This document shows, piece after piece, positions 1 to 14,641 of a stretch of 36,402 nt of DNA. Origin of the DNA: Armatimonadota bacterium (GTDB taxonomy: Bacteria > Armatimonadota > Hebobacteria > GCA-020354555 > CP070648). The stretch covers positions 3,062,501 through 3,098,902 of the forward strand of contig CP070648.1 of assembly GCA_020354555.1 (NCBI GenBank), read 5' to 3'. The position numbers and the translations under genes were made by a program. Each line of letters starts with the position of its first letter. The first letter of the stretch is position 1. Below the pieces are notes generated by a model. The model was not told the origin of the DNA. It saw only the letters and a list, made by a program, of their open reading frames with translations, and made no database searches.

Positions 1-1
1 T

Positions 2-883
2 CTGCCCGTGGACGGCTTCCGAGCGCTGAAGGACGCCGGCATCGGCACCTACCAGTGCTTCCAGGAGACGTACCATCCCGACCAGTACAGCTATCTGCAT
101 CCGTCGGGACGCAAGGCCGACTATCAGTGGCGGCTAGGCTGCATGGATCGGGCGTTCGAGGGCGGCATTGATGACGTCGGGATGGGAGTGCTGTTCGGGC
201 TGTACGATCACCGCTTCGATGTGCTGGCGCTGCTGGCGCATGCCGCGTATCTCGACGAGCGCTATGGAATCGGGCCGCACACACTGTCCTTCCCGCGCAT
301 CGAGCCGGCGCAGAACGCGCCCGCCGCTGAGGCGCCGCCCGCCCCGGTGAGTGACGACGACGTCCGCTTCATCGTCGCGGTGCTGCGCCTCGCGGTTCCC
401 TACACGGGGATCATCATGAGCACGCGCGAGACAGCCGAGATGAGGCGCGAGTTGTTCGGCCTCGGCGTGTCTCAGCTTTCCGCCGGCTCGCGCACCTACC
501 CCGGAGCCTACTCCGACGGCCGCGCGCATGTGGAGGAGGCAGAGCAGTTCGCCCTCGGCGATACGCGCTCTCTCGACCTGGTCGTGCGCGATCTGTGCGA
601 GAACCGCTACCTGCCGAGCTTCTGCACCTCGTGCTATCGCCTGGGACGCACCGGCAAGGACTTCATGGACATAGCGAAGCCGGGCCTGATCCAGCGTTTC
701 TGCACGCCGAACGCGCTGCTGACGTTCCAGGAATACTTGCTCGATTACGCCAGCCCCGATACCCGCGCGGTGGGCGAACGCCTGACGGCGCAACTGCTGG
801 GGCAAGTGGCCCCCGCCTTGCGAGCGAAGGTGAAAGAACGGCTCGCCGCGATACGCGCGGGAGAGCGAGATCTGTACCAGTGA
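2..883 (+). CDS. hydG: [FeFe]-hydrogenase maturase HydG, 5'-truncated
   Basis: HydG is the radical SAM tyrosine lyase that makes the CO and CN ligands, as an Fe(CO)2CN synthon, of the [FeFe]-hydrogenase H-cluster. The frame is open from the window edge, so the N-terminus with the radical SAM CX3CX2C motif lies outside; about 293 C-terminal residues are present. They carry family signatures such as QETYHPDQY, DVGMGVLFGLYDHRFD and SQLSAGSRTYPGAY. Most decisive is the C-terminal auxiliary-cluster motif CTSCYRLGRTG followed by a third Cys 22 residues after the second (CX2CX22C), which separates HydG from ThiH. A short Ala/Pro-rich insert (roughly codons 103-115 of the visible part) is lineage-specific. 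The stop codon overlaps the GTG start of hydE (GTGA), so the two are translationally coupled. The identification is firm; only the missing 5' end is unknown. Confidence 0.95.
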   Translation: MPVDGFRALKDAGIGTYQCFQETYHPDQYSYLHPSGRKADYQWRLGCMDRAFEGGIDDVGMGVLFGLYDHRFDVLALLAHAAYLDERYGIGPHTLSFPRIEPAQNAPAAEAPPAPVSDDDVRFIVAVLRLAVPYTGIIMSTRETAEMRRELFGLGVSQLSAGSRTYPGAYSDGRAHVEEAEQFALGDTRSLDLVVRDLCENRYLPSFCTSCYRLGRTGKDFMDIAKPGLIQRFCTPNALLTFQEYLLDYASPDTRAVGERLTAQLLGQVAPALRAKVKERLAAIRAGERDLYQ

Positions 884-1959
884 AGGACAACGCCGCAGCG
901 ATTCTGACGCGCCTGGAGGCCACCGGCCGCGCTTCGCGCGAGGAACTGACGCTCCTGCTCGGCGCGACCGGGGCGGATGCCGCGGCGCTGTATGTGGCGG
1001 CGGACCGGGTGCGCGCGGCCGCGGTTGGCGATGAGGTCCACCTGCGGGCGCTACTTGAGTTCTCGAATCACTGCCGGCGGAACTGCCTGTACTGCGGCGT
1101 GCGCCGCGAGCGGCGGGATCTCTCCCGGTATCGGATGCGCCCGGAGGAGATACTGAGAACCGCGCACGCTGCGGCGGCGCTGGGATATCGTACGGTGGTT
1201 CTACAGTCGGGCGAGGATGCGACGTACACGGCCGCCGGGCTGGCGTCATTGATACGGCAGATCAAGCGGGAATGCGACGCGGCAGTGACGCTGTCCATCG
1301 GCGAGAGAACGGAAGAGGAATACCGGCTGCTGCGCGAAGCGGGGGCGGACCGCTATCTGCTGCGGATCGAAACCTCGTCGCCCGCGTTGTACCGCGACCT
1401 GCATCCGGACTCGGACTGGCACGAGCGCCGAGAGCGGTTGCGCGTGCTTCGACGGCTTGGGTATCAAGTCGGGTCGGGGGTGCTCATCGGGGCGCCCGGC
1501 CAGACCGTGGAAATGCTCGCCGACGATCTGCTGTTCCTGCAGGAATTCGAACTGGACATGATAGGCGTCGGACCATTCATCCCCCACCCCTCCACCCCCC
1601 TCGGTGGAGCGCTCCCGGGCGCGCTGGATATCGCGCTGGGGTTCGTCGCGCTGCTGCGTTTGCTGTGTCCGCAAGCGCTCATCCCAGCGACCACCGCGCT
1701 CGGGGCGCTCCATCCCGAGGGGCGAGAGCGGGCGCTGCGCGCGGGCGCCGACGTGCTCATGGTCAACGTGACTCCGTACCGGTTCGGACGACGCTACGAT
1801 CTTTATCCGGGTAAGACATCTATAGGGGACGGGGCAGCGGGGTGCCGCCGCGCGGCGGAGGAGCTGGTTGCGAGGCTCGGGCGCCGCGCGGCCAGCGGCT
1901 ACGGGGACAGCCGACTTCCGGGCGCTCACCCCCGGGTGTGCCAGGGGGCGCCGGCATGA
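880..1959 (+). CDS. hydE: [FeFe]-hydrogenase maturase HydE
   Basis: HydE is a radical SAM enzyme that acts on the HydG-derived iron synthon in assembling the binuclear subcluster of [FeFe] hydrogenases. The 359-residue protein has the radical SAM motif CRRNCLYC (Cys65, Cys69, Cys72) in the typical HydE context LLEFSNHCRRNCLYCG. Further family marks are VVLQSGED, GERTEEEY, RIETSSPALY, GVGPFIPHPSTPL and the C-terminal VTPYRFGRRYDLYPGK. The GTG start at 880 overlaps the hydG stop by 4 nt, and a purine-rich stretch (GGGAGAGCGAG) lies upstream. The last 25 or so residues, after the usual end of the barrel, are Gly/Arg/Pro-rich and look like a lineage-specific tail. It sits between hydG and hydF. 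BioB or PylB-like radical SAM enzymes are the main alternatives, but context and motifs favour HydE strongly. Confidence 0.95.
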   Translation: MKDNAAAILTRLEATGRASREELTLLLGATGADAAALYVAADRVRAAAVGDEVHLRALLEFSNHCRRNCLYCGVRRERRDLSRYRMRPEEILRTAHAAAALGYRTVVLQSGEDATYTAAGLASLIRQIKRECDAAVTLSIGERTEEEYRLLREAGADRYLLRIETSSPALYRDLHPDSDWHERRERLRVLRRLGYQVGSGVLIGAPGQTVEMLADDLLFLQEFELDMIGVGPFIPHPSTPLGGALPGALDIALGFVALLRLLCPQALIPATTALGALHPEGRERALRAGADVLMVNVTPYRFGRRYDLYPGKTSIGDGAAGCRRAAEELVARLGRRAASGYGDSRLPGAHPRVCQGAPA

Positions 1960-2008
1960 GCGAGCGCCGCCGCGCGCCACAGGCGCCCTGCCGCAGACCG
2001 GACGTGAT

Positions 2009-3316
2009 ATGAGCCAGACGCTTAACGATACGCCGCTCGGCAGCCGGCTGCACATCGGCATCTTCGGGCGGCGGAATGCGGGCAAGTCGAGCCTCATCAA
2101 TGCGCTGACGAACCAGGATGCGGCGATCGTCTCGGACATCCCGGGGACGACCACCGACCCGGTACGCAAGGCGATGGAGATACAGCCGCTGGGGCCGGTG
2201 GTCATCATCGACACCGCAGGGATAGACGACACGGGGTCTCTCGGCGAGGCCCGCATTCGGCATACGCTGCGGGTGCTCGACAAGACGGATGTCGCGCTGC
2301 TGGTGCTCGACCCGCAGGCGGGCACGGATCGCTATGAAGACGAACTGGCGGATCGTATCGTCGGTGCCGGCGTGCCGTTGATCGCCGTCGCAAACAAGAC
2401 CGACCTCGGACTGGGCGATGATGCTCTGGTTGCCTGGGCCGCCTCGCGCGGCCTGCCGCTTGCGCGCTGTTCGGCCACCACGCGCCAGGGCATAGACATC
2501 GTGAGGACGCTCTTGATCAAGCACGCGCCGACGGGGTGGGTCATGCCCACCATCCTCGGCGACCTGATCCAACCGGGCGACGCGGTGGTCCTGGTCGTGC
2601 CGATAGACAAGGCGGCGCCCAAAGGGCGGCTCATCCTGCCGCAGGTGATGACGATTCGCGATGTAATCGACAATGAGGCGCACGCCGTTGTGGTCAAGGA
2701 GCGAGAGCTGCGGCACTGTCTGAGCACACTCGCGAGGCAGCCGGCCCTGGTGGTCACGGATTCGCAGGCGCTGCTGAAGGCCTCGGTGGACACGCCGCCG
2801 CAGGTGCCGTTCACGAGCTTCTCGATTCTGTTTGGACGATACAAGGGCGACCTGGAGGCGCTCGCGCGCGGGGCTCGCGCGGTGGATGATTTGCGCCCCG
2901 GGGACAAGGTGCTCATCGCCGAGGCATGCACCCATCATCCGGTGGGAGACGCGATCGGACAGGTGCAGATCCCGCGGTGGCTGCGTCAGCATGTCGGCGG
3001 CGAGCTTGACTTCAGCTTCGTCGCCGGGCAGGATTACCCGGAGGATCTGTCACCGTACGGGTTGGTGGTTCACTGCGGCGGGTGTATGATAAACCGTCAG
3101 GAGATGCTGTCGCGCATTGAGCGCGCCGAGCGCGCGGGCACGCCGATCGTGAATTACGGCGTGCTGCTGGGACGGATGCACGGCGTACTGGAACGGGCGC
3201 TCACGCCGTTTCCGCTTGCGCTCATGGCGTACGAGCGAGCGGAGGATGAGCGGCTGCCGACGGGCCTGCCGCTCGCAGCGAGAGGGCAGAAGTGCGCGGC
3301 GAGGCGTCGGGCATGA
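2009..3316 (+). CDS. hydF: [FeFe]-hydrogenase maturation GTPase HydF
   Basis: HydF is the scaffold and carrier GTPase on which the 2Fe subcluster is completed before transfer to apo-hydrogenase. The 435-residue protein has an N-terminal GTPase domain with P-loop GRRNAGKSS (residues 20-28), G3 DTAG and G4 NKTD. A dimerisation domain follows, then the C-terminal iron-sulfur domain with the HydF motif CTH (Cys307, His309) and, about 45 residues on, HCGGC (Cys356, Cys359), matching CxHx(44-53)HCxxC. The ATG at 2009 gives the standard N-terminus; the SD is weak (GGACGTGAT). It lies 49 nt after hydE and 75 nt before the NfnA-like gene, in the same apparent operon. With hydG and hydE it completes the maturation set, so the organism is expected to make at least one [FeFe] hydrogenase encoded outside the window. 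Confidence 0.95.
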   Translation: MSQTLNDTPLGSRLHIGIFGRRNAGKSSLINALTNQDAAIVSDIPGTTTDPVRKAMEIQPLGPVVIIDTAGIDDTGSLGEARIRHTLRVLDKTDVALLVLDPQAGTDRYEDELADRIVGAGVPLIAVANKTDLGLGDDALVAWAASRGLPLARCSATTRQGIDIVRTLLIKHAPTGWVMPTILGDLIQPGDAVVLVVPIDKAAPKGRLILPQVMTIRDVIDNEAHAVVVKERELRHCLSTLARQPALVVTDSQALLKASVDTPPQVPFTSFSILFGRYKGDLEALARGARAVDDLRPGDKVLIAEACTHHPVGDAIGQVQIPRWLRQHVGGELDFSFVAGQDYPEDLSPYGLVVHCGGCMINRQEMLSRIERAERAGTPIVNYGVLLGRMHGVLERALTPFPLALMAYERAEDERLPTGLPLAARGQKCAARRRA

Positions 3317-3391: not shown

Positions 3392-4237
3392 GTGTTTCGT
3401 GTTCGTTCAGCCACTGGACTCGGGCCGGACTTGACGCGACTCGACATCGAGGCGCCGGATCTGGCCCGCGCGGCTCAGCCGGGGCAGTTCCTGATGCTAC
3501 GCATCGACGAGGAGGGGGAACGGATTCCGCTGACGATCGCGGACAGCGATCCCGACGCGGGGACGGTCAGCGTCATCTTCCTCGCCGTGGGCAAGACAAC
3601 CCAGCAGCTGAGCCGTCTCAAGCCGCGCGACGCGGTGCTCGACGTCGCCGGCCCGTTGGGGCGGCACATGGAGATCGAGAAGGTCGGGACCGTCGTGTGC
3701 GTCGGCGGCGGCGTGGGCGTCCCCGCCCTGTACCCCAAGGCGCGCGCGCTCAAGCACGCGGGCAATTACGTTATCAGCGTCATCGGGGCGCGGACCGCCG
3801 AATTGCTGGTGCTGGTGGACGAGATGAGCGCCATCAGCGACGAGGTGCGGATCACGACGGACGACGGATCGCGCGGCCGCAAAGGGTTCGTGTCCGACGA
3901 ACTCAAGGACATGTTGGAGGACACGTCACGCGGGATTGACCTCGTGGTCGCGGTCGGGCCGATTCCGATGATGGCGGCGGTGGCGGAGACAACGCGGCCA
4001 TACGGGGTGAAGACCCTGGTGAGCCTGAACCCGATCATGGTGGACGGGACGGGAATGTGCGGCGGCTGCCGGGTGACCGTAGGCGGCGAGACGAAGTTCG
4101 CGTGCGTTGACGGCCCGGTGTTCGACGCCCACGAGGTCAACTTCACAGAGCTAGCGAAGCGCCAGACGAGATTCGTTGATTTCGAGCGGCGCGCGAAGGA
4201 GGAATACGAGCATGCCTGCCGACTCCAGCAAGCCTGA
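3392..4237 (+). CDS. NfnA-like FAD/[2Fe-2S] subunit (ferredoxin-NADP+ reductase alpha / sulfide dehydrogenase type)
   Basis: Likely the small subunit of an NfnAB-type enzyme, which bifurcates electrons between NADPH, NAD+ and ferredoxin; homologues were first called sulfide dehydrogenase. The 281-residue protein has a ferredoxin-reductase flavin domain with the FAD motif RIPLT (near residue 47), an NAD-binding core beginning VVCVGGGVGVPALYP, and a C-terminal [2Fe-2S] segment GTGMCGGCRVTVGG...KFACVDGPVFDAH that holds three cysteines. The related dihydroorotate dehydrogenase electron-transfer subunit PyrK ends differently and lacks the GTGMCGGC context. The GTG start at 3392 is preceded by GGAGGG at about 8 nt spacing. 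Its 3' end overlaps the large-subunit gene by 26 nt, which supports a stoichiometric complex. Its place behind hydGEF suggests it connects H2-derived or H2-forming reduced ferredoxin to NADPH; that link is inference. Confidence 0.88.
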   Translation: MFRVRSATGLGPDLTRLDIEAPDLARAAQPGQFLMLRIDEEGERIPLTIADSDPDAGTVSVIFLAVGKTTQQLSRLKPRDAVLDVAGPLGRHMEIEKVGTVVCVGGGVGVPALYPKARALKHAGNYVISVIGARTAELLVLVDEMSAISDEVRITTDDGSRGRKGFVSDELKDMLEDTSRGIDLVVAVGPIPMMAAVAETTRPYGVKTLVSLNPIMVDGTGMCGGCRVTVGGETKFACVDGPVFDAHEVNFTELAKRQTRFVDFERRAKEEYEHACRLQQA

Positions 4238-5606
4238 GCGGCCCCCGCGCCAGCGCATGCCGGAACAGGACGCGAAGGTCCGCGCCGGCAACTTCGACGA
4301 GGTCGCCCTCGGCTTCACGGAGGAGTTGGCGATCGCCGAAGCCTCGCGCTGTCTGCAGTGCAAGAAGCCGAAATGCATCGCGGGTTGCCCGGTGGGCGTT
4401 GACATCCCGGGCTTTCTGGCTCTCGCGGGAGAGGGGAAGTTCGCCGAAGCGGCCGCGCTGCTGCGGGAGAAGAACAGCCTGCCCGCCATGTGCGGGCGCG
4501 TATGCCCGCAGGAGACTCAGTGCGAAGGAGTGTGTGTGCTCGGACGCAAGTCGGAGCCGGTTGCGGTGGGGCGCGTCGAGCGCTTCGTCGGCGACTATGT
4601 CCTGGGCCGAGGAGACTTGAAGTCCGCTGCCCCTGACGGGCCGCGCGTGGCAGTGGTCGGGTCCGGGCCGGCGGGCCTCACGGTCGCCGGCGACCTGGCG
4701 CGGCGGGGCTACCGCGTGACGGTGTTCGAAGCCTTGCACGCAGGCGGCGGCGTGCTGCGCTACGGGATTCCGAATTTCCGTCTGCCGAAGACCGTGCTCC
4801 AGGCGGAGACTGACTACGTGCGCGGCCTCGGCGTCGAGTTGCGGCTGGATGCCGTCATCGGGCGCCTGTACACCTTGCCGCAGCTCCTGGAGTCAGGCTA
4901 CAGCGCGGCGTTCATCGGCACCGGTGCGGGCACGCCGCACTTCCTGGAGATCGAGGGCGAGAATCTGAACGGGGTGTACTCGGCGAACGAGTTCCTGACG
5001 CGCGCGAATCTGATGCAGGCGTACCGCGTGGGCGAGGTCGACACGCCGATATGGGTCGGCGACCGGGTGGTCGTCGTGGGCGGCGGCAACGTGGCGATGG
5101 ACGCAGCGCGGGTCGCGCTGCGCCTGGGCGCGCGCGAAGTGAGCATCGTGTATCGGCGGTCGCGCACCGAGATGCCGGCGCGCGCCGAGGAGGTCGCGCA
5201 CGCGGAGGAAGAGGGCATCCGTTTCGAGATGCTGACCAACCCGACGCGCATTCTGTCCGACGGCGACTTCTGGGTCGGCGGCATCGAGTGTCAGCGCATG
5301 GACCTGGGCGAGCCGGACGAGTCGGGGCGGCGGCGGCCGGTGCCGCGCCCGGGGTCCGAGTTCGTCATCGCGGCGGACACGGTCATCATCGCCATCGGCA
5401 CCGCAGCCAACCCGCTCGTCCAGCAGACCACGCCGGGGCTCGCGGTGAACCAGCGCGGGTACATCGTAGTTGACAACGAAACAGGGCTGACGAGCTTGCC
5501 TCGGGTGTACGCGGGCGGCGACATCGTCACCGGCTCGGCGACAGTCATCGAGGCGATGGGCGCGGGCCGGCGCGCGGCGTCGGCGATCCACGAGGAATTG
5601 AGCTAG
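4212..5606 (+). CDS. NfnB-like NADPH-binding, glutamate-synthase-small-subunit-like subunit
   Basis: Likely the large subunit of the NfnAB-type transhydrogenase, cytoplasmic, with FAD, NADPH and two [4Fe-4S] clusters. The 464-residue protein has an N-terminal iron-sulfur domain with CLQCKKPKCIAGCPVGVDIP (first Cys near residue 47) and MCGRVCPQETQCEGVCVLG. A first Rossmann fold (VAVVGSGPAGLTVAGDLA) binds FAD, and a second (VVVVGGGNVAMDAARVALRLG, then YRRSRTEMPA) binds NADPH. A closing GGDIVTGSATVIEAMGAGR motif contacts FAD. The ATG at 4212 is chosen because AGGAGG sits 9 nt upstream; an earlier in-frame ATG at 4176 lacks this. It overlaps the small subunit by 26 nt. Glutamate synthase beta (GltD) is the closest alternative, but the partner subunit fixes the assignment as Nfn/Sud-like. 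Confidence 0.88.
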   Translation: MPADSSKPERPPRQRMPEQDAKVRAGNFDEVALGFTEELAIAEASRCLQCKKPKCIAGCPVGVDIPGFLALAGEGKFAEAAALLREKNSLPAMCGRVCPQETQCEGVCVLGRKSEPVAVGRVERFVGDYVLGRGDLKSAAPDGPRVAVVGSGPAGLTVAGDLARRGYRVTVFEALHAGGGVLRYGIPNFRLPKTVLQAETDYVRGLGVELRLDAVIGRLYTLPQLLESGYSAAFIGTGAGTPHFLEIEGENLNGVYSANEFLTRANLMQAYRVGEVDTPIWVGDRVVVVGGGNVAMDAARVALRLGAREVSIVYRRSRTEMPARAEEVAHAEEEGIRFEMLTNPTRILSDGDFWVGGIECQRMDLGEPDESGRRRPVPRPGSEFVIAADTVIIAIGTAANPLVQQTTPGLAVNQRGYIVVDNETGLTSLPRVYAGGDIVTGSATVIEAMGAGRRAASAIHEELS

Positions 5607-5875
5607 GAGGCATCGGGGCAGGCTCGCGTCGCGCCTGGCGCTGCCGGGCGGCGGCTGTTGAGGGTTACGCTCACGTTTTGGCATGGCTCGCAGGCCTTTG
5701 CGCCTGCTGATTGCTTGGTCCGGAGGGTCTCGGGCAAGGAGGAACCGAGACGAGAGGGCGGATAGCCCGGGACTCTCTTGGGGACGGGGCGAGCGATGCG
5801 ACTGCTTGCAGTCGAGTCGGGTCGCGGACCCTGCTGGGTTGGATCGAGAAGCCGGTCGGACGGAGCAGGAAGAGC
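5607..5875 (+). other. Non-coding leader between the Nfn genes and the sensor-kinase operon
   Basis: This 269-nt gap is the longest in the hydrogenase locus; the other same-strand joints overlap or span less than 80 nt. It has small inverted repeats near its 3' end: CGACTG/CAGTCG around a 4-nt loop (about 5799-5814) and GGGTC/GACCC around GCG shortly after. I could not find a convincing -35/-10 pair or a riboswitch family I know. The frame stays open through it, but the translation looks non-biological and a proper start is present at 5876. A promoter for the kinase operon is plausible here but not shown. Confidence 0.4.
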
Positions 5876-7921
5876 ATGGGCGACATGGCAAGCATTGTCC
5901 AGACCGTGCCGGAGAAGTGCAAGCGCTGCTACACGTGCGTGCGGAGCTGCCCGGCAAAGGCGATTAAGGTCGAAGGGGGGCAGGCGCGCGTGATCGAGGA
6001 GCGCTGCCTGACGTGCGGCAATTGCATCCGCGTGTGCGCGCAGCACGCCAAGTCGGTCGGGAGCGGACGGCCGGAGTTGGAGCAGATTCTGGCCGGGAGC
6101 CGCCCGGCAATTGCGTGTCTCGCGCCGTCGTTCCCGGCGGCGTTTGAGGCGGTGTCGCCGGGGCAAGTCATCGCCGGCCTGCGCCAGCTCGGCTTCGCGC
6201 AGGTCATGGAGGTTGCCTATGGGGCCGAACTCACCGCGCTCGCCTACCGCGAGCTGCTGAGCGGCAAGATCCCGACGCCGGTCATCACGACGCCGTGCCC
6301 GGCGTTGGTGTCTTACGTCGAGAAGTATCTGCCTGAGCTGATCCCGAATCTCGCGCCGATCGTTTCACCGATGATCGCGCTGGCCCGCTTCATTCGGACG
6401 AAGTACTGCCCGGAAGCGGCGGTCGTGTTCATCGGCCCCTGCACTGCAAAGAAGGCGGAGATACGCGACGAGGCGATGGCGGGCATTGTTGATGTCGTCC
6501 TCACCTATGAGGAGACGCAGCAACTGTTCGCGCAGGACGGCGTGGCGCTGCACGAACTGGCGCCAAGCGAGTTCGACGGGCCGCGCGCGCGCTTCGGCGG
6601 GATTTTCCCGGTTTCCGGCGGCCTGCTGAAGACGGCGCACATGGAGAGCGATATTCTGGAGAACGACATTATCGTCTCCGAGGGCGTGGACCGCGCCCTG
6701 GACGTGCTGCGGCAGACGATGGACGGCGCGCTCAACGCGCGCTTCCTCGATCTGCTGTTCTGCAATGGCTGTATCGCCGGCCCGGTGATGGGCAACGACC
6801 TCAGCATCGTCGCGCGCAAGGAGTTGGTAGTGCGCCATGTGCGACAGGAGCGAGCAGCGGCAAGCGAGGCCGCCACCTACTACAACGCGCTGATGGAAGC
6901 GCGGGAGGGCCTCGACCTCAGCCGGAGCTTCCACGACCGGTCGATGCCCTTGTCGATGCCGAGCGACGCAGAACTCGCGACCATCCTGGCGCAAATGGGC
7001 AAACACGAGCCGGAGGACGAACTCAACTGCGGCGCATGCGGGTATCCGACGTGCCGGGACAAGGCGGTGGCCGTGTATCAGGGGCTGGCCGAGGCGCAGA
7101 TGTGCCTGCCCTTCCTGATTGACGAGCTGGAGACGACGATCCAGGAACTGGCGGACTCCAAGGTGCAGATCGAGAAGGCGCAGAGCTTGCTGATCCAGAG
7201 CGAGCGCCTTGCCTCGATGGGGCAGCTCGCCGCGGCGGTTGCCCACGAACTGAATAACCCGCTCGGCACCGTGCTCATTTATGCGCACACCCTGCTGCGC
7301 GAACTGCAGACTGGCGATCCGCGCCGCGACGATGTGCAGATGATCGCGGCCGAATCCGAGCGCTGCCGCAAGATTGTCCGCGGCCTGCTCGATTTCGCGC
7401 GCAAGCGCAGCCGCCAGGCGGATGCGGTTGACATCGGCGCGGTGCTCGAGAACGTCATCGGGATCGTGCAGAAGCACGCGGTCTTCAGCCGAGTCAACAT
7501 TGACCTGCGTGTCGCGCACGATCTACCCACGGTTGACGGCGACGCCGACCAGCTCACCCAGGCGTTCGTGAATCTTGCGACCAACGCAGCCGAGGCCATG
7601 CCCGACGGGGGCAAGCTCACGATCTCGGCGTGCCCCCATGACGGCGATCGGGTGGACATCGCCTTCACGGACGAAGGCGTAGGCATCTCCGAGGAGAACC
7701 GCCAGCGTCTGTTCACGCCGTTCTTCACGACCAAGGCGGGAGGCAAGGGCACGGGCCTGGGCTTGCCCATCGTGTACGGCGTGGTCAAGATGCATAGCGG
7801 CGATGTCCGCGTGGACAGCGAGGTCGGCAAGGGCACCACGTTCACCATTACCCTCAACCGCTGGCGGGAGGGGATCGAGGAGACCCCGGTGGCGCCGGAG
7901 CCGGGCATCATCGGCCAGTGA
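5876..7921 (+). CDS. Sensory [FeFe]-hydrogenase-like histidine kinase (2x[4Fe-4S] + Fe_hyd_lg_C + Fes4 + HisKA/HATPase)
   Basis: Probable cytoplasmic H2 or redox sensor kinase of 681 residues. In order: a bacterial ferredoxin module (CKRCYTCVRSCPAKA, CLTCGNCIRVC, residues 15-55); an H-cluster-type hydrogenase domain (about 75-340); a Fes4 domain starting CGACGYPTC (Cys385, 388, 393) and closing with MCLP; a coiled coil; an NtrB-like kinase core with H-box AHELNNPL (His457); and an HATPase with NAAEAM, DEGVGIS and GKGTGLGLPI. The hydrogenase loops are altered. L1 reads TTPCPAL (Cys141) where catalytic enzymes have TSCCPAW, so the proton-shuttle Cys is Pro. L2 is GPCTAKKAE (Cys189). L3 is FCNGCIAGP (Cys296, Cys299). 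Cluster cysteines remain, catalysis residues do not. No transmembrane or PAS segment is visible. Start 5876 (or ATG 5885) follows GGAG/AGGAAG. It overlaps the next gene by GTGA. Confidence 0.92.
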   Translation: MGDMASIVQTVPEKCKRCYTCVRSCPAKAIKVEGGQARVIEERCLTCGNCIRVCAQHAKSVGSGRPELEQILAGSRPAIACLAPSFPAAFEAVSPGQVIAGLRQLGFAQVMEVAYGAELTALAYRELLSGKIPTPVITTPCPALVSYVEKYLPELIPNLAPIVSPMIALARFIRTKYCPEAAVVFIGPCTAKKAEIRDEAMAGIVDVVLTYEETQQLFAQDGVALHELAPSEFDGPRARFGGIFPVSGGLLKTAHMESDILENDIIVSEGVDRALDVLRQTMDGALNARFLDLLFCNGCIAGPVMGNDLSIVARKELVVRHVRQERAAASEAATYYNALMEAREGLDLSRSFHDRSMPLSMPSDAELATILAQMGKHEPEDELNCGACGYPTCRDKAVAVYQGLAEAQMCLPFLIDELETTIQELADSKVQIEKAQSLLIQSERLASMGQLAAAVAHELNNPLGTVLIYAHTLLRELQTGDPRRDDVQMIAAESERCRKIVRGLLDFARKRSRQADAVDIGAVLENVIGIVQKHAVFSRVNIDLRVAHDLPTVDGDADQLTQAFVNLATNAAEAMPDGGKLTISACPHDGDRVDIAFTDEGVGISEENRQRLFTPFFTTKAGGKGTGLGLPIVYGVVKMHSGDVRVDSEVGKGTTFTITLNRWREGIEETPVAPEPGIIGQ

Positions 7922-8340
7922 GCGCAGCGACGACGATACTGATTGTGGACGACGACGCCGACTTCGTGGCCGTTTCCCGCGCCGCTCTCGAGAGCGCCGG
8001 CTACGACGTGCTGGTCGCGGAAGACGCACCGAGCGGCTTTCGGACGGCCGTTGAGAGGCGGCCTGATCTGATCCTGCTCGACCTGATGATGGAGGAGACC
8101 GACTCGGGGGTGCGCCTCGCGCACGACCTACGACGCGATCCGGCTACCCGTCGGACGCCCATCGTCATCCTCACCGCGGTGCGGCAAGCGACCGGTTTCG
8201 ACTTCACGCCGAGTGGGCGCGAGGACCGCGAGTGGATCGCCGCCGACGAATGGATCGAGAAGCCGATCGCGCCGTGGGATCTCGTCAATCTGGCCGCACG
8301 GCTACTCGCGGCTCCGACCGAGGAGGGCGACCCATCGTGA
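7918..8340 (+). CDS. Stand-alone response-regulator receiver protein
   Basis: Single-domain receiver of 140 residues, the probable phosphate acceptor from the hydrogenase-like kinase just upstream. It shows the acidic pair after ILIVDDD (Asp11, Asp12), the phosphorylatable Asp55 in LILLDLMM, the switch Thr86 in VILTAV and the conserved Lys115 in WIEKPI. An insert, TGFDFTPSGREDREWIAADE, lies between strand 4 and strand 5; I recall similar receivers beside iron-hydrogenase-like kinases, but cannot verify that here. There is no output domain. Both ends overlap neighbours by 4 nt (GTGA at 7918-7921 and 8337-8340), so the three signalling genes are translationally coupled. Like Spo0F or CheY-type proteins it could shuttle phosphate to another protein or act by direct binding. 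Confidence 0.9.
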   Translation: MSAATTILIVDDDADFVAVSRAALESAGYDVLVAEDAPSGFRTAVERRPDLILLDLMMEETDSGVRLAHDLRRDPATRRTPIVILTAVRQATGFDFTPSGREDREWIAADEWIEKPIAPWDLVNLAARLLAAPTEEGDPS

Positions 8341-9836
8341 GCAGCGCCCGTATCCTGGTGGTGGATGACGAACAAGGCATCCGCGAAGGCTGCCGCCGCG
8401 TCCTGACGGCCGAGGGCCACGAGGTGGACACGGCGGACGACGGCGCGGCGGGGCTCGAGGCGTTCCGGGCGGACCACTACGACCTGGTGCTGGTGGACCT
8501 GCGGATGCCCGGGCTGTCGGGCATGGAACTGCTCGGCGCACTGCGCGAGCACGATGCGGACGCCGTCGCCGTCATCATTACCGCCTATGCCAGTTTGGAC
8601 ACGGCGGTCGAGGCAACCAAGCGCGGCGCCTACGATTACCTGGCCAAGCCGTTCACCCCGGACGAGCTGATGGCGATCGTCACGCGCGGCCTGGCGCACT
8701 GTCGCCTGCTGACCGAAGCGCGCAGGCTGCGCGAGCAGCGCGAGCGCGACTTGTTGGCGCTGGCGAGCGAGCAGTCGCGCCTGCGCACCATCATAGACTG
8801 CATGGCCGACGGGCTGCTGGTCATGAACCGTGATCATCAGCTCGTCCTGTACAACCCGGCGGCCCTGCGACTTCTGCGCCGGGACGAGCTGACCCTCGGC
8901 GACCTCGCCTCGAGATGCCTCGACTGCCCGGAACTCGTGGACACGATCGAGACCACCCTGAAGACGCAAGCGCCGACCAGGACGCAGCGCGAGTTCACGA
9001 TCGGGGCGGGGCAGGATGAAACCGTGGTGCGCGTCACCGCGGTGCCGGTGGTTGACGAGAAAGGCGAAGGCCTCGGCGTTATCGCGGTGCTGCGCGACGT
9101 GACGGCGCAGAAGGAAGTCGAGCGCGTGAAAGCGAGCTTCGTCAACATGGTGTCGCACGAGCTGCGGGCGCCGCTGTCCGCCGCGCGCGGCTATCTCGAC
9201 GTGATCCTGGACGGATTCGTCGGCGACAACCCTGAGAAAGAGCGGAGGATGCTGACGCGCGTGCGCGCGCGCACCGACGGGTTGCTGTCCCTGGTTGACG
9301 ACTTGCTCACCGTGTCGCGACTCGACCAGCCGAACCTGCCGCGCACCGTCGAGCCGGTCGCGGTGGCGGAGCTTCTCTCGGACACGGTGGAACTGTTCGC
9401 GGCGGAGGCAGAGGCGCACCAGGTCCGCATTCAATACGCCGTGCCCGCAACGCAGCTGTCGGTGATGGCGAATCGCGAAGAGTTGCGGCAGCTGTTCACG
9501 AATCTCATCAGCAATGCGGTCAAGTACAACCGCGCGGGCGGCTCGGTCACCGTTACCGTGGACATGGTCGGCGAGAACGTTCGGGTCGCGGTGAGTGACA
9601 CCGGGCTCGGCATACCGGCGGACGCCATCCCCGACCTCGGGCGCGAGTTCTACCGCGTCAAGACTTCCGAGACGCGCGAGATCGTGGGCACAGGCCTCGG
9701 GCTGTCGGTGGTCAAGCGCATCCTCGCCGCGTATCACGGCCGCCTCGAGATCGCCTCACGGGAAGGCGAGGGCTCAACCTTCACCGTCTTCCTGCCCAAG
9801 CTCGCGACGGCGGGGGAGAAAGCGCCGGCGACCTGA
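8337..9836 (+). CDS. Hybrid sensor kinase, REC-PAS-HisKA-HATPase
   Basis: Cytoplasmic hybrid kinase of 499 residues with an unusual N-terminal receiver. Residues 1-120 form a receiver (VVDDE, Asp54 in LVLVDLRMPGLSG, TAYAS, Lys in YLAKPF). A coiled linker leads to a PAS domain (about 145-265, beginning RTIIDCMADGLLVMN). HisKA follows with the H-box VSHELRAPL (His274), then HATPase with NLISNAVKYN, DTGLGIP and GTGLGLSVVKRI. No membrane segment is seen. The GTG at 8337 overlaps the previous stop (GTGA) and is preceded by GAGGAGGG, so I prefer it to the longer open frame from 8232. It lacks a DNA-binding domain. Together with the two upstream genes it suggests a phosphorelay that starts from the hydrogenase-like sensor; the direction of phosphate flow is inferred from order and domains only. 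Confidence 0.92.
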   Translation: MSSARILVVDDEQGIREGCRRVLTAEGHEVDTADDGAAGLEAFRADHYDLVLVDLRMPGLSGMELLGALREHDADAVAVIITAYASLDTAVEATKRGAYDYLAKPFTPDELMAIVTRGLAHCRLLTEARRLREQRERDLLALASEQSRLRTIIDCMADGLLVMNRDHQLVLYNPAALRLLRRDELTLGDLASRCLDCPELVDTIETTLKTQAPTRTQREFTIGAGQDETVVRVTAVPVVDEKGEGLGVIAVLRDVTAQKEVERVKASFVNMVSHELRAPLSAARGYLDVILDGFVGDNPEKERRMLTRVRARTDGLLSLVDDLLTVSRLDQPNLPRTVEPVAVAELLSDTVELFAAEAEAHQVRIQYAVPATQLSVMANREELRQLFTNLISNAVKYNRAGGSVTVTVDMVGENVRVAVSDTGLGIPADAIPDLGREFYRVKTSETREIVGTGLGLSVVKRILAAYHGRLEIASREGEGSTFTVFLPKLATAGEKAPAT

Positions 9837-10103: not shown

Positions 10104-13100
10104 CTACTGCGGCTGGAGCCAGAAATTGACGTAGGTCGTCGCGCCGGCCGTGACCGGGATGTCCTTCCTGGTCTGACCAAGGTACCCGGCCTTGCTTGCG
10201 CCGACGACGTAGGTCCCCGCCGGCAAGTCGCTGGCGATCTCGTATACGCCCCACGGCGCCGTGGTTGTGCCCACTGCCCACAAGACGCCCCCGCTGCGCG
10301 CGAGGATCGTCGCACCGACAATCGGCGTGCCCGTGTCGTAGTCTTTGACCTGTCCTTTGAGCTTGCCCGAAACCGGGAGTGAGAAGTTGACGTAGGTGGT
10401 CGCGCTCTCGGTCACGGTGACGCTCGATTTGGACTGCCGCACGTAACCCGGCATGGATGCGATGACCGTGTAGGTGCCTGCCGGCACACTGGTGCCGAAC
10501 TCGTATACGCCGTAGGGCGCGGTCGTGACCGTGGTGGCGACTACCGAACCGTCGAGGTACATGCCGATGGCGGCGCCGACGAGCGGGAGGCTGGTGCTCG
10601 CGTCCTTTACCTGACCCTTGAGCGGGGCGGGGCGGGGCGCAAGGGCGAAGTTGACGTAGGTCGTGGCGCCGGCGGTCACCGGGATGTGGGCTTTGGTCTG
10701 TGTCACGTAACCAGCTTTGGAGGCGACGACGACGTACTCGCCCGCGGGCAGGTTGGTGAGCATGAGGTAAATGCCGCGGCTATCGGTCGTCGTGGCCGCA
10801 CGCAACTCGCCTCCGAGGTACGCGGCGACGGTGGCGTTCGGTATGTTGATCGTGGTGTCCCGCTCGCGCACTTGGCCCATGAGGATGCCGGAGATCGGGA
10901 GGTCGCAGTTGACCTCGACGGTTCCGCCCGCGGGCACGATCACCCCCGCCTGAGTCTGGCCCACGTAGCCCGGCTTGTAGGCCTTCACGGTGTATGCGTC
11001 GGGTAGGAGATCGGTAATCGTGTAGGCGCCGCTCGAGTCGGTCGTCGCCGAGCCGCGCAGTTGGTCGCCGCTGTAGGCCTCCACGGTCACGCCTTCGAGA
11101 TACGTCGCGGTGCCGGCAACGCGCACGCGCCCCGTCACGGCGCCCGGCTGGGCGGGCATTTCGGGGAAGACGAGCAGACCCCAACCGTAGTCGGCGAGGT
11201 AGGCATAGCCGCCGCCGAGGACGACGTCGCTGGCGGTGCCCGGCGTGTCCCAATAGGCAACTTCGCCCGGCGCCTGCGGGTTCCACACGGCGATGATGCG
11301 CAGCCCGCCGTACTGATCCGGCACGTACACGTACCCGCCCTCGTACTCGACGTCGACCGCATAGTGGGGGGTATTGAGGTGGCCGACTTCGACCGGAGCA
11401 GACCGGTCCGAGACGTCTATGATGCGCAGGCCCATCCACGAGTCGGCGACATAGGCGTAGCCCCCGCCGACCGCGACGTCGCGCGCGTAGCCCGGCGTGT
11501 CGCACCAGCCGACCTCGACCGGCGTCCACGGGTCGGAGGCGTCTATGATACGCAGCCCCGACCACTCATCGGTGACATAGACGTCGGTGCCGACGGCCGC
11601 CACGCCCCAGGACCAGCCGATGGTGTCCCAGTAGCCCATGCCGACCGGGTCCCACGGGTTCGATACGTCAACCACGCGTACGCCGGGGAAGTTGTCAACG
11701 ACGTAGGCATACTGCCCGGACACGGCGACGTCCACCGGGTCACCGGGGCTGAGCCACGCGCCAGCGAACACCGGATTCGCCGGGTTCGCAAGGCTCCACA
11801 CCCAGAGGCCGGCAGCATCCGTAGTGTAGAGGTAGTCCCCGGCCACGACCATGCTGTTCACGCCGCTCCATAGGTCGAAGAAGCGGACATGTGTCGGGTT
11901 GGACTTGTCCGACACGTCTACGACGCGGATTCCCGGAGGGCCATCGGCGAGGTATACGTAATCGCCGCTGACGGCGACGGCGCGGGCCCGCCCGGGCCGC
12001 TCGAGGTACGACCGCTCGACCGGGTCTTTCGGCGTCGGCAGCTCGGCGACGCGCAGGCCGCCGAAGTCGTCGGCGATATAGACGTAACCGACGGGCAGGT
12101 CTTCGAAGCCTTCTTGGAGATACATATAGCCGGGCTGGACGGCAACGTCGGTGGCGAATCCCGGGGTCACGACGGCACCGGCCTCGGTTGGATTGGCGGG
12201 GTCGGACACATCAATCAGCCGCATGCCCGCATGGTTGTCGGCCACGCACACATAGCCGCCGAGCAGTGCCACCTTGCGGGCGTAACCCGGCGTATCGCAG
12301 CGAGCCACTTCGAATATGGTGAACGGATCCGAGACGTCGATGACGCCCAGGCCCGCGTGGCCGTCCGCGACGTACACGTACGGTCCCGTGAAGCGGCCCG
12401 AGATCGCCACACCCCAGGCGTAGTCGGCGGTGCCAAGCGTTCCCTCGGCTTGCGGCGCTGCCGGATTGGAGACGTTGACGACTTGGATGCCGCCGTAGCC
12501 GCATGCGAGATAGGCGCGTCCCTGCGCGACCGCTATGTCCACGATGTCGCCGGAGACATAGAAATACCCCGCCCACGCCGGCTCCTCGAGGTCGGTCAGA
12601 TCGATGATGACGAGGCCCGTGTCCGCCGCGACATACGCATACAGCTTCTGGTTTTCCTCCTCGCCGACGGTCTGCACGACGACCTTCCAGGCCCAGCCAC
12701 CTGCCGGCACGGTGTTGACGTGAACGGGGTTGAGGGGATCGGACACGTCGACCACCTCCACGCCCTCGTAGCCGTCGGCGATGAACACCAGGTTTCCCAG
12801 AGCCGTCACGTTCTGGGCATATCCAGAGGTGTCGTAGATGCTCAGCGGCACCGGGTTCAACGGGTTGGCAATGCCGTAGATGCGCATCCCGCTGAGGCCG
12901 TCGGCAACGTATGCGTAATCGCCGATCGCAGCGACTCCCAGTGCCCAATCGGGCGTGTCGGAGTCGGCGACCTCGACGGGCTGCTCCGGGTCGACGACGT
13001 CCACGACGCGGACGCCGGCGTACTCGTCAGCGACATAGGCGTATCCGGAGTCCACCGCCACGGCACTCGGCCATGCGACGGGGGTAGGGGTTGTCCACCA

Positions 13101-13994
13101 CGAGACCTCATACGGCCACGGGGGATCAGACACGTCGAGGACAACCACGCCGCCGGACCCCATGGTGACGTACGCATATCCGTAGGGGGAGAGGGTGATG
13201 CTCTCGATGAACGGCTCCGGCCAGTCTCCCGCTTGCTCGGGCGCGGTGGGATCGGAGACGTCAATGACGTTGAGACTGCACCCGTCAACGCCGACGTACG
13301 CGTACCGTCCTCGAGCGGCGACGGCACGGTGGTACATCGGCTCTTCATCCTCCGGTGTCTGGATGACGATGCCGCCGACGAACTCCGGGCGTGCGGGATC
13401 GGATACGTCCACGATCCGCAGACCTCCGTAGCCGGCCGTCACGTAGGCGTAGTCCCCCCAGATCGCGAGCCTCACGGCGTTAGCATCTTCAAAGGCGCAA
13501 TTGCCGACGCGAACGGGGTTCTCCGGGTCAGTGATGTCTATGATGACAACGCCCTGGCACGCCGCCGCGACATAGGCGTAATCGCCGACGACCTCGACAT
13601 CCGAGGCAGCGCCCGGGCTGGTATCGCCGACTGCGACCTCCACCGGTAAGGTAGGATCGGACACGTCTATCACGCGCAGGCCGGCAGAGCTATCCGCGAC
13701 ATAGGCATAGGCGCCGGACACGTCAAGGGCGACGGCCCAGTTGGGCGTGTCGCAGTAGCCCAACTGCACCGAGCTAAAGGGATCGGTTACATCCAGCACG
13801 GTGAGCGCGCCGGCTGCTGCGACATACGCGTAACCATCCTGCACCACGACATCGTACGGGATGCCGCCCACCAACTGCCCCTCGGGCGGCCACGTGCCGC
13901 CTTCGGCGCCGACCGGCGGCGCGACCGCGCCGGCGATGACCACGAGCAACCCGATGAAGCTGACGACGGGCGCAATCCGGACAGCGCTTTTCAT
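10104..13994 (-). CDS. Large secreted LVIVD-repeat protein with C-terminal carboxypeptidase-regulatory-like domains
   Basis: Exported or cell-surface protein of 1296 residues; cellular role unknown. The start at 13994 follows GGAGGGAGAT and gives a clear signal peptide (MKSAVRIAPVVSFIGLLVVIAGAVA). The body is a tandem array of about 21 LVIVD repeats (COG5276), each of the form YAYVAD..GLRVIDVSDP..PVEVG...TPG.A..VAV. These repeats are known to build beta-propellers, and 21 fits three seven-bladed propellers (inference). The last 345 or so residues hold four carboxypeptidase-regulatory-like Ig folds, each opening with G.V(K/R)D....P..GA.V and closing with AGATTYVNF or similar. No catalytic or metal site is evident. 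There is no sorting motif at the end (it stops after NFWLQPQ). It is monocistronic between a divergent glycosidase gene and its own terminator. Adhesion, substrate binding or matrix function is possible but not shown. Confidence 0.88.
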   Translation of the reverse strand: MKSAVRIAPVVSFIGLLVVIAGAVAPPVGAEGGTWPPEGQLVGGIPYDVVVQDGYAYVAAAGALTVLDVTDPFSSVQLGYCDTPNWAVALDVSGAYAYVADSSAGLRVIDVSDPTLPVEVAVGDTSPGAASDVEVVGDYAYVAAACQGVVIIDITDPENPVRVGNCAFEDANAVRLAIWGDYAYVTAGYGGLRIVDVSDPARPEFVGGIVIQTPEDEEPMYHRAVAARGRYAYVGVDGCSLNVIDVSDPTAPEQAGDWPEPFIESITLSPYGYAYVTMGSGGVVVLDVSDPPWPYEVSWWTTPTPVAWPSAVAVDSGYAYVADEYAGVRVVDVVDPEQPVEVADSDTPDWALGVAAIGDYAYVADGLSGMRIYGIANPLNPVPLSIYDTSGYAQNVTALGNLVFIADGYEGVEVVDVSDPLNPVHVNTVPAGGWAWKVVVQTVGEEENQKLYAYVAADTGLVIIDLTDLEEPAWAGYFYVSGDIVDIAVAQGRAYLACGYGGIQVVNVSNPAAPQAEGTLGTADYAWGVAISGRFTGPYVYVADGHAGLGVIDVSDPFTIFEVARCDTPGYARKVALLGGYVCVADNHAGMRLIDVSDPANPTEAGAVVTPGFATDVAVQPGYMYLQEGFEDLPVGYVYIADDFGGLRVAELPTPKDPVERSYLERPGRARAVAVSGDYVYLADGPPGIRVVDVSDKSNPTHVRFFDLWSGVNSMVVAGDYLYTTDAAGLWVWSLANPANPVFAGAWLSPGDPVDVAVSGQYAYVVDNFPGVRVVDVSNPWDPVGMGYWDTIGWSWGVAAVGTDVYVTDEWSGLRIIDASDPWTPVEVGWCDTPGYARDVAVGGGYAYVADSWMGLRIIDVSDRSAPVEVGHLNTPHYAVDVEYEGGYVYVPDQYGGLRIIAVWNPQAPGEVAYWDTPGTASDVVLGGGYAYLADYGWGLLVFPEMPAQPGAVTGRVRVAGTATYLEGVTVEAYSGDQLRGSATTDSSGAYTITDLLPDAYTVKAYKPGYVGQTQAGVIVPAGGTVEVNCDLPISGILMGQVRERDTTINIPNATVAAYLGGELRAATTTDSRGIYLMLTNLPAGEYVVVASKAGYVTQTKAHIPVTAGATTYVNFALAPRPAPLKGQVKDASTSLPLVGAAIGMYLDGSVVATTVTTAPYGVYEFGTSVPAGTYTVIASMPGYVRQSKSSVTVTESATTYVNFSLPVSGKLKGQVKDYDTGTPIVGATILARSGGVLWAVGTTTAPWGVYEIASDLPAGTYVVGASKAGYLGQTRKDIPVTAGATTYVNFWLQPQ
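10107..11141 (-). repeat. Four tandem carboxypeptidase-regulatory-like modules
   Basis: Four modules of about 80-90 codons encode beta-sandwich domains beginning GRVRVAG, GQVRERD, GQVKDAS and GQVKDYD. Their interiors repeat the pattern TTxxxGxYxxxxxLPAGxYxVxASKxGYxxQT. The last three end with TYVNF and are closer to each other than to the first. The modules form the C-terminal stalk or binding region of the LVIVD protein. Confidence 0.75.
11142..13870 (-). repeat. In-gene tandem array of about 21 LVIVD repeats
   Basis: Repeat units of about 41-45 codons encode the YAYVAD...GLRVIDVSDP pattern. By eye I count 21, with weaker copies where the core reads YAYVADGLSGMRIYGIANP (8th), LVFIADGYEGVEVVDVSDP (9th), YLYTTDAAGLWVWSLANP (16th) and the last, YAYLADYGWGLLVFPE. 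Longer inserts interrupt the array near repeats 4-5, 9-10 and 13-14. The copies are diverged at DNA level, so this is an old protein repeat, not recent slippage. Confidence 0.8.
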
Positions 13995-14641
13995 ATCTCC
14001 CTCCGGGCCGGTGGGTTCGGGACGATCGTCCCCGTCTCGAGGCGGGTATCCAAGAAGCCGAGTGCTCGTCGGGTCAACGAGTGTTCGGCGAGCGCGGATC
14101 GGGATAGGGGAAGTACGCGGGCGTCCTGGAGCGAGCCGGCAGCGGCTCTCCAATGCGCCCCCGGAGTCGCGGAAGTCAGTGTCGCGTGGACGGCCATTGT
14201 CCAACTCCGCATGTGCCGCCGCGCGGGCTGCGAAACGCAGGTACATACGTCACAGGAGTACGCTCGCGTCCGCGGCAACGCCCGCTCCTCGCGGCACGCC
14301 TACGCCACGATCGGCGGGAAAGGTGTAACAACGGCGAGCGCCCGCACGTCGGTCACCACAGCGTGTATTCGACAGCTAACCAGTGGGCGTATTCGTTGCT
14401 TGCGCCGCCAATCCCTTCTCTTTCGCGGCAAGATTCGTGCCATCGCGGCGCCGCCCTTGGGGCCGTTACGTATCGGCGGCGGGGCCGGGCGATGCCCTGG
14501 CGGATGCACGCGCGTGACGCCGTACGGTTTGCAAGGTGTGTCGCGTGCCCGCGGCGAATGCGCCAGCAGGCGCTGCCGGTCCGGGTGTATGGACCGAACA
14601 GCCGCTATCTCGCGCGAGCGACGCCAGAGGATGGCGCGGTC
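13995..14641. other. Intergenic region between divergent LVIVD and GHL10 genes
   Basis: A 647-nt stretch separates two divergently transcribed genes, so both promoters should lie here. I found the SD of the LVIVD gene (GGAGGGAGAT next to 13994) but no convincing -35/-10 pair on either strand. Several frames are open because of the high GC content, including an upstream extension of the GHL10 frame to 14153, but their translations are Arg/Ala-rich and look non-biological. No RNA gene is recognised. Confidence 0.5.

Follow-up and report, generated by a model that had tools for sequence, protein, structure and literature searches.

Group C1 of the [FeFe]-hydrogenases is listed in HydDB as histidine-kinase-linked (PMC5037454) and has also been met in Cloacimonadota (PMC8542988). 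Kinase-type ATPase domains in C1 have already been reported for Hydrogenedentota; the accessible part of that report states that standard H-cluster signatures were hardly found in this group and describes neither a CxxC L3 loop nor a linker register (PMC11406978). In group C, the enzyme that has been characterised is T. maritima HydS; it is of the PAS type (M2f), has Ala, Gly, and Ser in place of C299, M353, and M497, respectively, incorporates the [2Fe] site, and turns over H2 slowly (PMC10055695, PMC8163306). T. mathranii TamHydS, a putative sensor of group D (M2e), has two Fer4 motifs, an H-domain, and a Fes4 cluster (Cx2Cx4Cx16C), and has lost the proton relay Cys (PMC8163306, PMC13104023). 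No characterised member carries a CxxC L3.

Here we describe hydS-HK (5876..7921), a 681-residue fusion of a group C-type [FeFe]-hydrogenase with a histidine kinase, identified by translation, Pfam, and comparison with relatives in a 36,402-nt stretch of an Armatimonadota bacterium (GCA_020354555.1, CP070648.1 positions 3,062,501 to 3,098,902, forward strand; hereafter, the window). By the description of C1, hydS-HK is a member of an already named class, histidine-kinase-linked group C (PMC5037454), with HisKA and HATPase_c in the same chain; shared traits are the group C H-domain, Fer4 and Fes4 modules, the histidine kinase link, and a place beside group A3 bifurcating hydrogenases. Like T. 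maritima HydS, it has lost C299 (Ala there, Pro here), has Gly at M353, carries a Fes4 C-terminal cluster, and is linked to a catalytic hydrogenase operon, whereas in the T. maritima protein Fes4 is followed by a PAS domain, no kinase is fused (PMC10055695), and Ser occupies the M497 position where hydS-HK has Leu. Because PAS is lacking after Fes4, hydS-HK is not M2f in the strict sense. TamHydS shares the Fer4x2-H-domain-Fes4 order and the loss of the relay Cys but differs in having Ser at M353 and no fused output domain (PMC8163306, PMC13104023). The evidence presented below makes it probable that hydS-HK is a C1-type sensory hydrogenase kinase that senses H2 or redox state at a low-turnover H-cluster and relays the signal mechanically to its kinase.

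Domain organization of hydS-HK and its operon

Unless stated otherwise, all features given are on the plus strand. The N-terminal region contained two [4Fe-4S] ferredoxin-type motifs (C15 C18 C21 C54 and C44 C47 C50 C25; 5906..6043; Pfam Fer4, residues 11-56), and the Fe_hyd_lg_C (H-cluster) domain followed at residues 78-303 (6107..6784; PF02906, E 4e-51, and AlphaFold model). The initial annotation had read the loops of this domain as TTPCP, GPCTAKK, and CNGC, with Cys141, Cys189, Cys296, and Cys299 kept, and the translated sequence confirmed every one of these readings. L1, TTPCP (residues 138-142; 6287..6301), placed Pro140 and Cys141 at the C299 and C300 equivalents; L2, GPCTAKK (residues 187-193; 6434..6454), contained Gly187 (M353 equivalent), Cys189, and Lys192 (K358 equivalent); and L3, CNGC (residues 296-299; 6761..6772), aligned with C499 and C503 with one residue deleted between them. 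The catalytic group A motifs (TSC[CS]P in L1, MPC in L2, and EVMxCxGGC in L3) were absent from hydS-HK, which has TTPCP, GPC, and LLFCNGC instead, and so was the CxxxC spacing of L3, the one-residue deletion being clade-wide. The explanation that these loops arose by chance or frameshift was rejected, the same motifs recurring in relatives with 45-55% identity over 430 aa.

Downstream of the H-domain were the Fes4 [4Fe-4S] motif, Cx2Cx4Cx16C (C385 C388 C393 C410; 7028..7105; Pfam PF04060, residues 383-412), a signalling helix of 47 residues from C410 to the phospho-acceptor His457 (7106..7246; relatives' linker lengths and model), and the kinase core of HisKA (448-512) and HATPase_c (555-661) (7217..7858; Pfam). 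The active-kinase motifs His457, N566/N570, D599-G601-G603, and GKGTGLGL were present. The Fer4 and Fes4 cysteines, His457, the N-box, and the G-boxes were invariant in 50 relatives, and Pfam found no PAS domain in hydS-HK or in the 50 relatives scanned. The closest solved relatives of the kinase core were ZraS and KinB; the core resembles those of NtrB/ZraS/AtoS-type HisKA kinases, but its input is an [FeFe]-hydrogenase module instead of a periplasmic or PAS domain. The ATG at 5876 is preceded by AGGA; an alternative in-frame TTG start at 5711 was unsupported, relatives' homology beginning at about residue 7.

hydS-HK shares its operon with the maturase genes hydG (1..883, 3' part; TIGR03955 over cut-off), whose 5' part, interrupted by a run of N, falls outside the window; hydE (ORF 595..1959; TIGR03956 over cut-off), with homology from ~880 and a start probably near 880, where it would touch the hydG stop; and hydF (ORF 1868..3316, likely start near 2009; TIGR03918, 549 bits). 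Between these and hydS-HK were genes for an NfnA/sulfide-dehydrogenase-like FAD/NAD-binding subunit (3392..4237; NF004862) and an NfnB/glutamate-synthase-small-subunit-like Fer4_20 and FAD subunit (4176..5606; TIGR01316 over cut-off), the latter separated from hydS-HK by 269 bases. Domain searches identified a stand-alone receiver (REC) protein (7918..8340) and a REC-PAS-HisKA-HATPase kinase (8337..9836) downstream. Each start overlaps the preceding stop by 4 bases (GTGA), and the three genes therefore look translationally coupled. The downstream kinase follows the logic of LvrB-type Rec-controlled kinases (PMC13269768), whose kinase activity is governed by a receiver by way of a helix, with the difference that a DNA-binding or anti-sigma partner was not identified at the hydS locus. 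A sigma54 promoter scan of the window gave 9 matches against 4.7 expected, not above chance, with none just upstream of hydS-HK. Adjoining the operon on the minus strand (10104-14246) was a large repeat protein with LVIVD-like repeats followed by carboxypeptidase-regulatory-like domains.

Besides hydS-HK, the 4.88-Mb assembly has one other PF02906 gene, at 4.61 Mb, which encodes a group A HydA and is accompanied by HydC and a HydB-GltD fusion. The sensor-receiver-kinase trio is joined here to hydG-hydE-hydF and not to hydABC. Runs of N interrupt both this HydA and hydG. The HydB (L004:5368-8424, 1018 aa) is fused to a GltD-like NADPH-oxidoreductase domain, the NfnB-like part elsewhere being the next gene. 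The L1 of the host HydA (L004:8845-10110) reads TSCSP, as in many group A3 HydA proteins, including several in L067-L097, and as in A. woodii HydA1 (PDB); Ser is thus found at the C300 position, where a ligand of the [4Fe-4S] cluster would be expected. A protein encoded beside this hydA (L004:10388-13336) has C-terminal repeats similar to those of the large repeat protein in the window.

A large group C clade with a shortened L3

A scan of 84,980 species genomes yielded 80 named loci; the scan patterns included VF[IV]GPCxAK and therefore inherently bias how often Gly appears in L2, whereas they did not cover L1 and L3. The layout of hydS-HK was found in about 60 further proteins from about 15 phyla, which by record titles included Hydrogenedentota, Planctomycetota, Bacteroidota, Ignavibacteriota, Calditrichota, Myxococcota, Thermodesulfobacteriota, Acidobacteriota, Elusimicrobiota, Chloroflexota, and Bacillota. 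The direct fusion of ferredoxin, hydrogenase, Fes4, and kinase modules without PAS, which the initial annotation had called unusual, was shared by all 50 clade members scanned and fits HydDB C1 (PMC5037454); a unique architecture was accordingly rejected. In the same phylum, CxxC sensors occurred in 14 genomes, the host included, and other genomes carried classical group C proteins with CxxxC.

Among the group C sequences scored, L3 was CxxC in 71 and CxxxC in 31, with the longer spacing retained in 31 of 31 of the latter. The C299 position of the 71 CxxC proteins was occupied by Pro (21), Asp (15), Thr (13), Ser (11), Ala (8), or Asn, Tyr, or Lys (1 each) and never by Cys; in the 31 CxxxC proteins, it was Ala (19), Cys (9), Ser (2), or His (1). 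The equivalents of C300, C355, C499, and C503 (CpI numbering) were present in 71 of 71 CxxC sequences, and those of A230, P231, S232, and K358, which hold the cyanide ligands in CpI, were kept in 69 to 70. Furthermore, the Q325 equivalent was Met in 65 of the 71, and the M497 equivalent was Leu in 69. Published frequencies for sensory hydrogenases are 17% Cys, 43% Ala, ~10% Pro, and 10% Ser at position 299 and ~51% Gly at position 353 (PMC10055695); by these figures, too, Pro at 299 and Gly at 353 are ordinary for such proteins. The proposed kinship to sensory group C was upheld: the Cys of the proton shuttle is replaced, as is the Met that corresponds to M353 of CpI, and the four H-cluster cysteines are retained; two of the three loop changes that the initial annotation had pointed out are published group C traits (PMC10055695), and the third shortens L3 by one residue relative to the group C proteins with CxxxC.

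In the tree, which the initial annotation had proposed as a check, hydS-HK grouped with group C and was separate from group A, 107 non-A rows separating from 7 group A rows with a support of 100. The CxxC label required 3 changes on a quick maximum-likelihood tree, compared with a shuffled mean of 35, and may be of single origin. The branching of group D inside the CxxC clade was disregarded as an unreliable placement of a long branch (3.4 changes per column). In the open-access literature, we found no description of the shortened L3 as a clade mark, of its link with kinase or AAA+ output, or of the heptad register described below.

Several other branches and variants were observed. A gut/clostridial group C branch (L130-L144; mostly Lachnospiraceae and Clostridium) has CxxxC, and Cys at C299 (TTCCP) persists in most of its members of the Lachnospiraceae type. 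The hydrogenase-Fes4 module also occurs in fusions with sigma54-type AAA+ activators in some Firmicutes and a Desulfuromonas (L109, L119, L145, and L099), possibly forming one-component H2/redox regulators. Six loci of the same phylum (L007, L009, L010, L013, L015, and L018), mostly with a C-terminal receiver fusion, have lost the phospho-acceptor His at +47 (replaced by Ala, Ser, Gln, or Glu) with G-boxes intact; the His is kept in L008, L012, and L016.

The gene neighbourhood was counted among 51 named kinase-type loci. Catalytic HydA was encoded immediately upstream of hydS in 36 of the 43 loci with enough sequence, and a receiver gene lay immediately downstream in 46 of 46. In 40 of 44 loci, a longer receiver protein came after this receiver or incorporated it, most of these longer proteins being REC-(PAS)-kinases; maturase genes came next in 12 of 36. 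A divergent HydG paralogue lies between catalytic hydA and the CxxC sensor in L146, L148, L149, L151, L153, and L156; its radical-SAM CxxxCxxC is kept, and the C-terminal auxiliary-cluster motif is absent in four of the six (L146, L149, L153, and L156) and in a related L152 copy.

The active-site pocket and its alternative readings

Modelled with AlphaFold from 50 sequences, residues 1-430 reached a pLDDT of 93.3, and the H-domain matched CbA5H, CpI, and DdH with Z scores of 35-43 (up to 42.6) and an rmsd of 2.3-2.8 A over about 346 aligned residues. The match to CpI and CbA5H, with Z scores of 40-43, included L1-L3. A single cubane can be ligated by a CxxC pair, as in ferredoxins. Together, these points and the pocket residues favour a full H-cluster, although they do not prove it; cytosolic Nar1-type homologues keep cysteines and have no [2Fe] site.

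hydS-HK could instead be an Fe-S-only redox sensor kinase, with a plain [4Fe-4S] cluster at Cys141/189/296/299 and no [2Fe], that reads ferredoxin/NADH poise via Fer4; we consider this unlikely, with a real if minor chance of being correct. It would suit the clade-wide CxxC spacing and absence of the relay Cys (71 of 71 sequences), as well as the scarcity of standard H-cluster signatures reported for Hydrogenedentota C1 (PMC11406978). Leu at the M497 position in 69 of 71 points the same way, the [2Fe] cluster being improperly integrated in CpI M497L, but replacement of M497 alone is no bar to [2Fe] insertion in T. maritima HydS (PMC10055695). Against an Fe-S-only centre stand the near-invariance of the [2Fe]-holding residues, the maturase genes in the same operon, and the constant adjacency to catalytic hydA. 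HydG was present in 14 of 14 same-phylum genomes with a CxxC sensor compared with 51 of 291 genomes overall, a co-occurrence of HydEFG with the sensor that is confounded by the presence of catalytic HydA in all these genomes. About 18 of the 50 MAGs holding the sensor or a close relative (G291, G293-G297, G301, G303, G304, G307, G311-G313, G323, G325, G326, G335, and G340) lacked both HydF and HydG, a frequent joint absence that could also speak for an Fe-S-only centre; however, the HydA proteins read beside the sensor in such MAGs have canonical L1-L3, so assembly gaps are the likelier reason, and the missing maturases do not prove that the [2Fe] cluster is absent.

A sensor of CO or another diatomic gas, rather than H2, at a non-catalytic H-cluster is very unlikely: the small Gly at the M353 position and the changed pocket could favour ligand trapping, but the constant linkage is to bifurcating hydrogenase genes and not to CO metabolism, and greater CO resistance has been reported for HydS proteins of groups C and D (PMC8163306). 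It is likewise very unlikely that the protein is a metabolic hydrogenase that happens to bear a kinase domain. Its Fer4 electron-transfer motifs and H-domain are complete, and NfnAB-like subunits are encoded in the operon; relay positions of group A, C299 among them, are nevertheless replaced, a separate HydABC-type hydrogenase is encoded at 4.61 Mb, and functional kinase motifs and receiver neighbours are present. The suggestion in the initial annotation that H2 might be bound without turnover is doubtful, T. maritima HydS slowly turning over H2 with equivalent losses (PMC10055695, PMC8163306). For the H2/redox-sensing kinase that we favour, slow turnover, with a cluster that reports occupancy or redox state instead of serving metabolism, would be expected from the loss of the group A proton relay.

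Linker register and the proposed signal path

In 57 of 57 kinases whose H-box is intact, the last Fes4 Cys and the phospho-His were 33, 40, 47, or 54 residues apart (n = 1, 18, 37, and 1, respectively), in steps of exactly seven. Linker length changed at least 8 times on the tree, always by multiples of 7; the odds of eight arbitrary indels all being multiples of seven are estimated at ~1 in 6 million, independence being assumed. In the full-length AlphaFold model, a single helix (residues 411-476) runs from just after C410 through His457. Heptad-dependent linker length is a hallmark of coiled-coil signalling in sensor kinases (PMC6798134), and the lengths and the model support a signal that passes directly, by way of a coiled coil, from the Fe-S domain into the kinase. 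The C-terminal cluster of TamHydS is not reduced by H2 (PMC13104023), so a mechanical role of Fes4, rather than one in electron transfer, is the simpler reading.

We propose that the H-domain carries an H-cluster built by HydE, HydF, and HydG from the same operon, the state of which would be altered by H2 or by redox poise via the N-terminal [4Fe-4S] clusters. The change would pass mechanically via Fes4 into the helix that starts at C410 and continues unbroken into the DHp helix, where it would alter the balance of kinase and phosphatase activity at His457. The phosphate would then be transferred to the coupled receiver protein, to the receiver domain of the REC-PAS-kinase, or to both, and the phosphorelay may end in regulation of the hydrogenase and maturation genes.

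More tentatively, hydS-HK may represent a broad uncharacterised class of [FeFe]-hydrogenase-derived sensors, with kinases as output and sigma54 AAA+ domains in some Firmicutes, in which an H-cluster sits in a shortened-L3 pocket and the output domain is driven directly, without an intervening PAS, through a coiled coil that extends from a [4Fe-4S] domain. The kinase-fused clade, with its output in the same chain, soluble, and assayable, offers a way into the signalling route of sensory [FeFe]-hydrogenases, in which the seven-residue linker register would be a direct handle on the H2 response; in addition, the CxxC clade bears on whether the H-cluster tolerates a CxxC L3.
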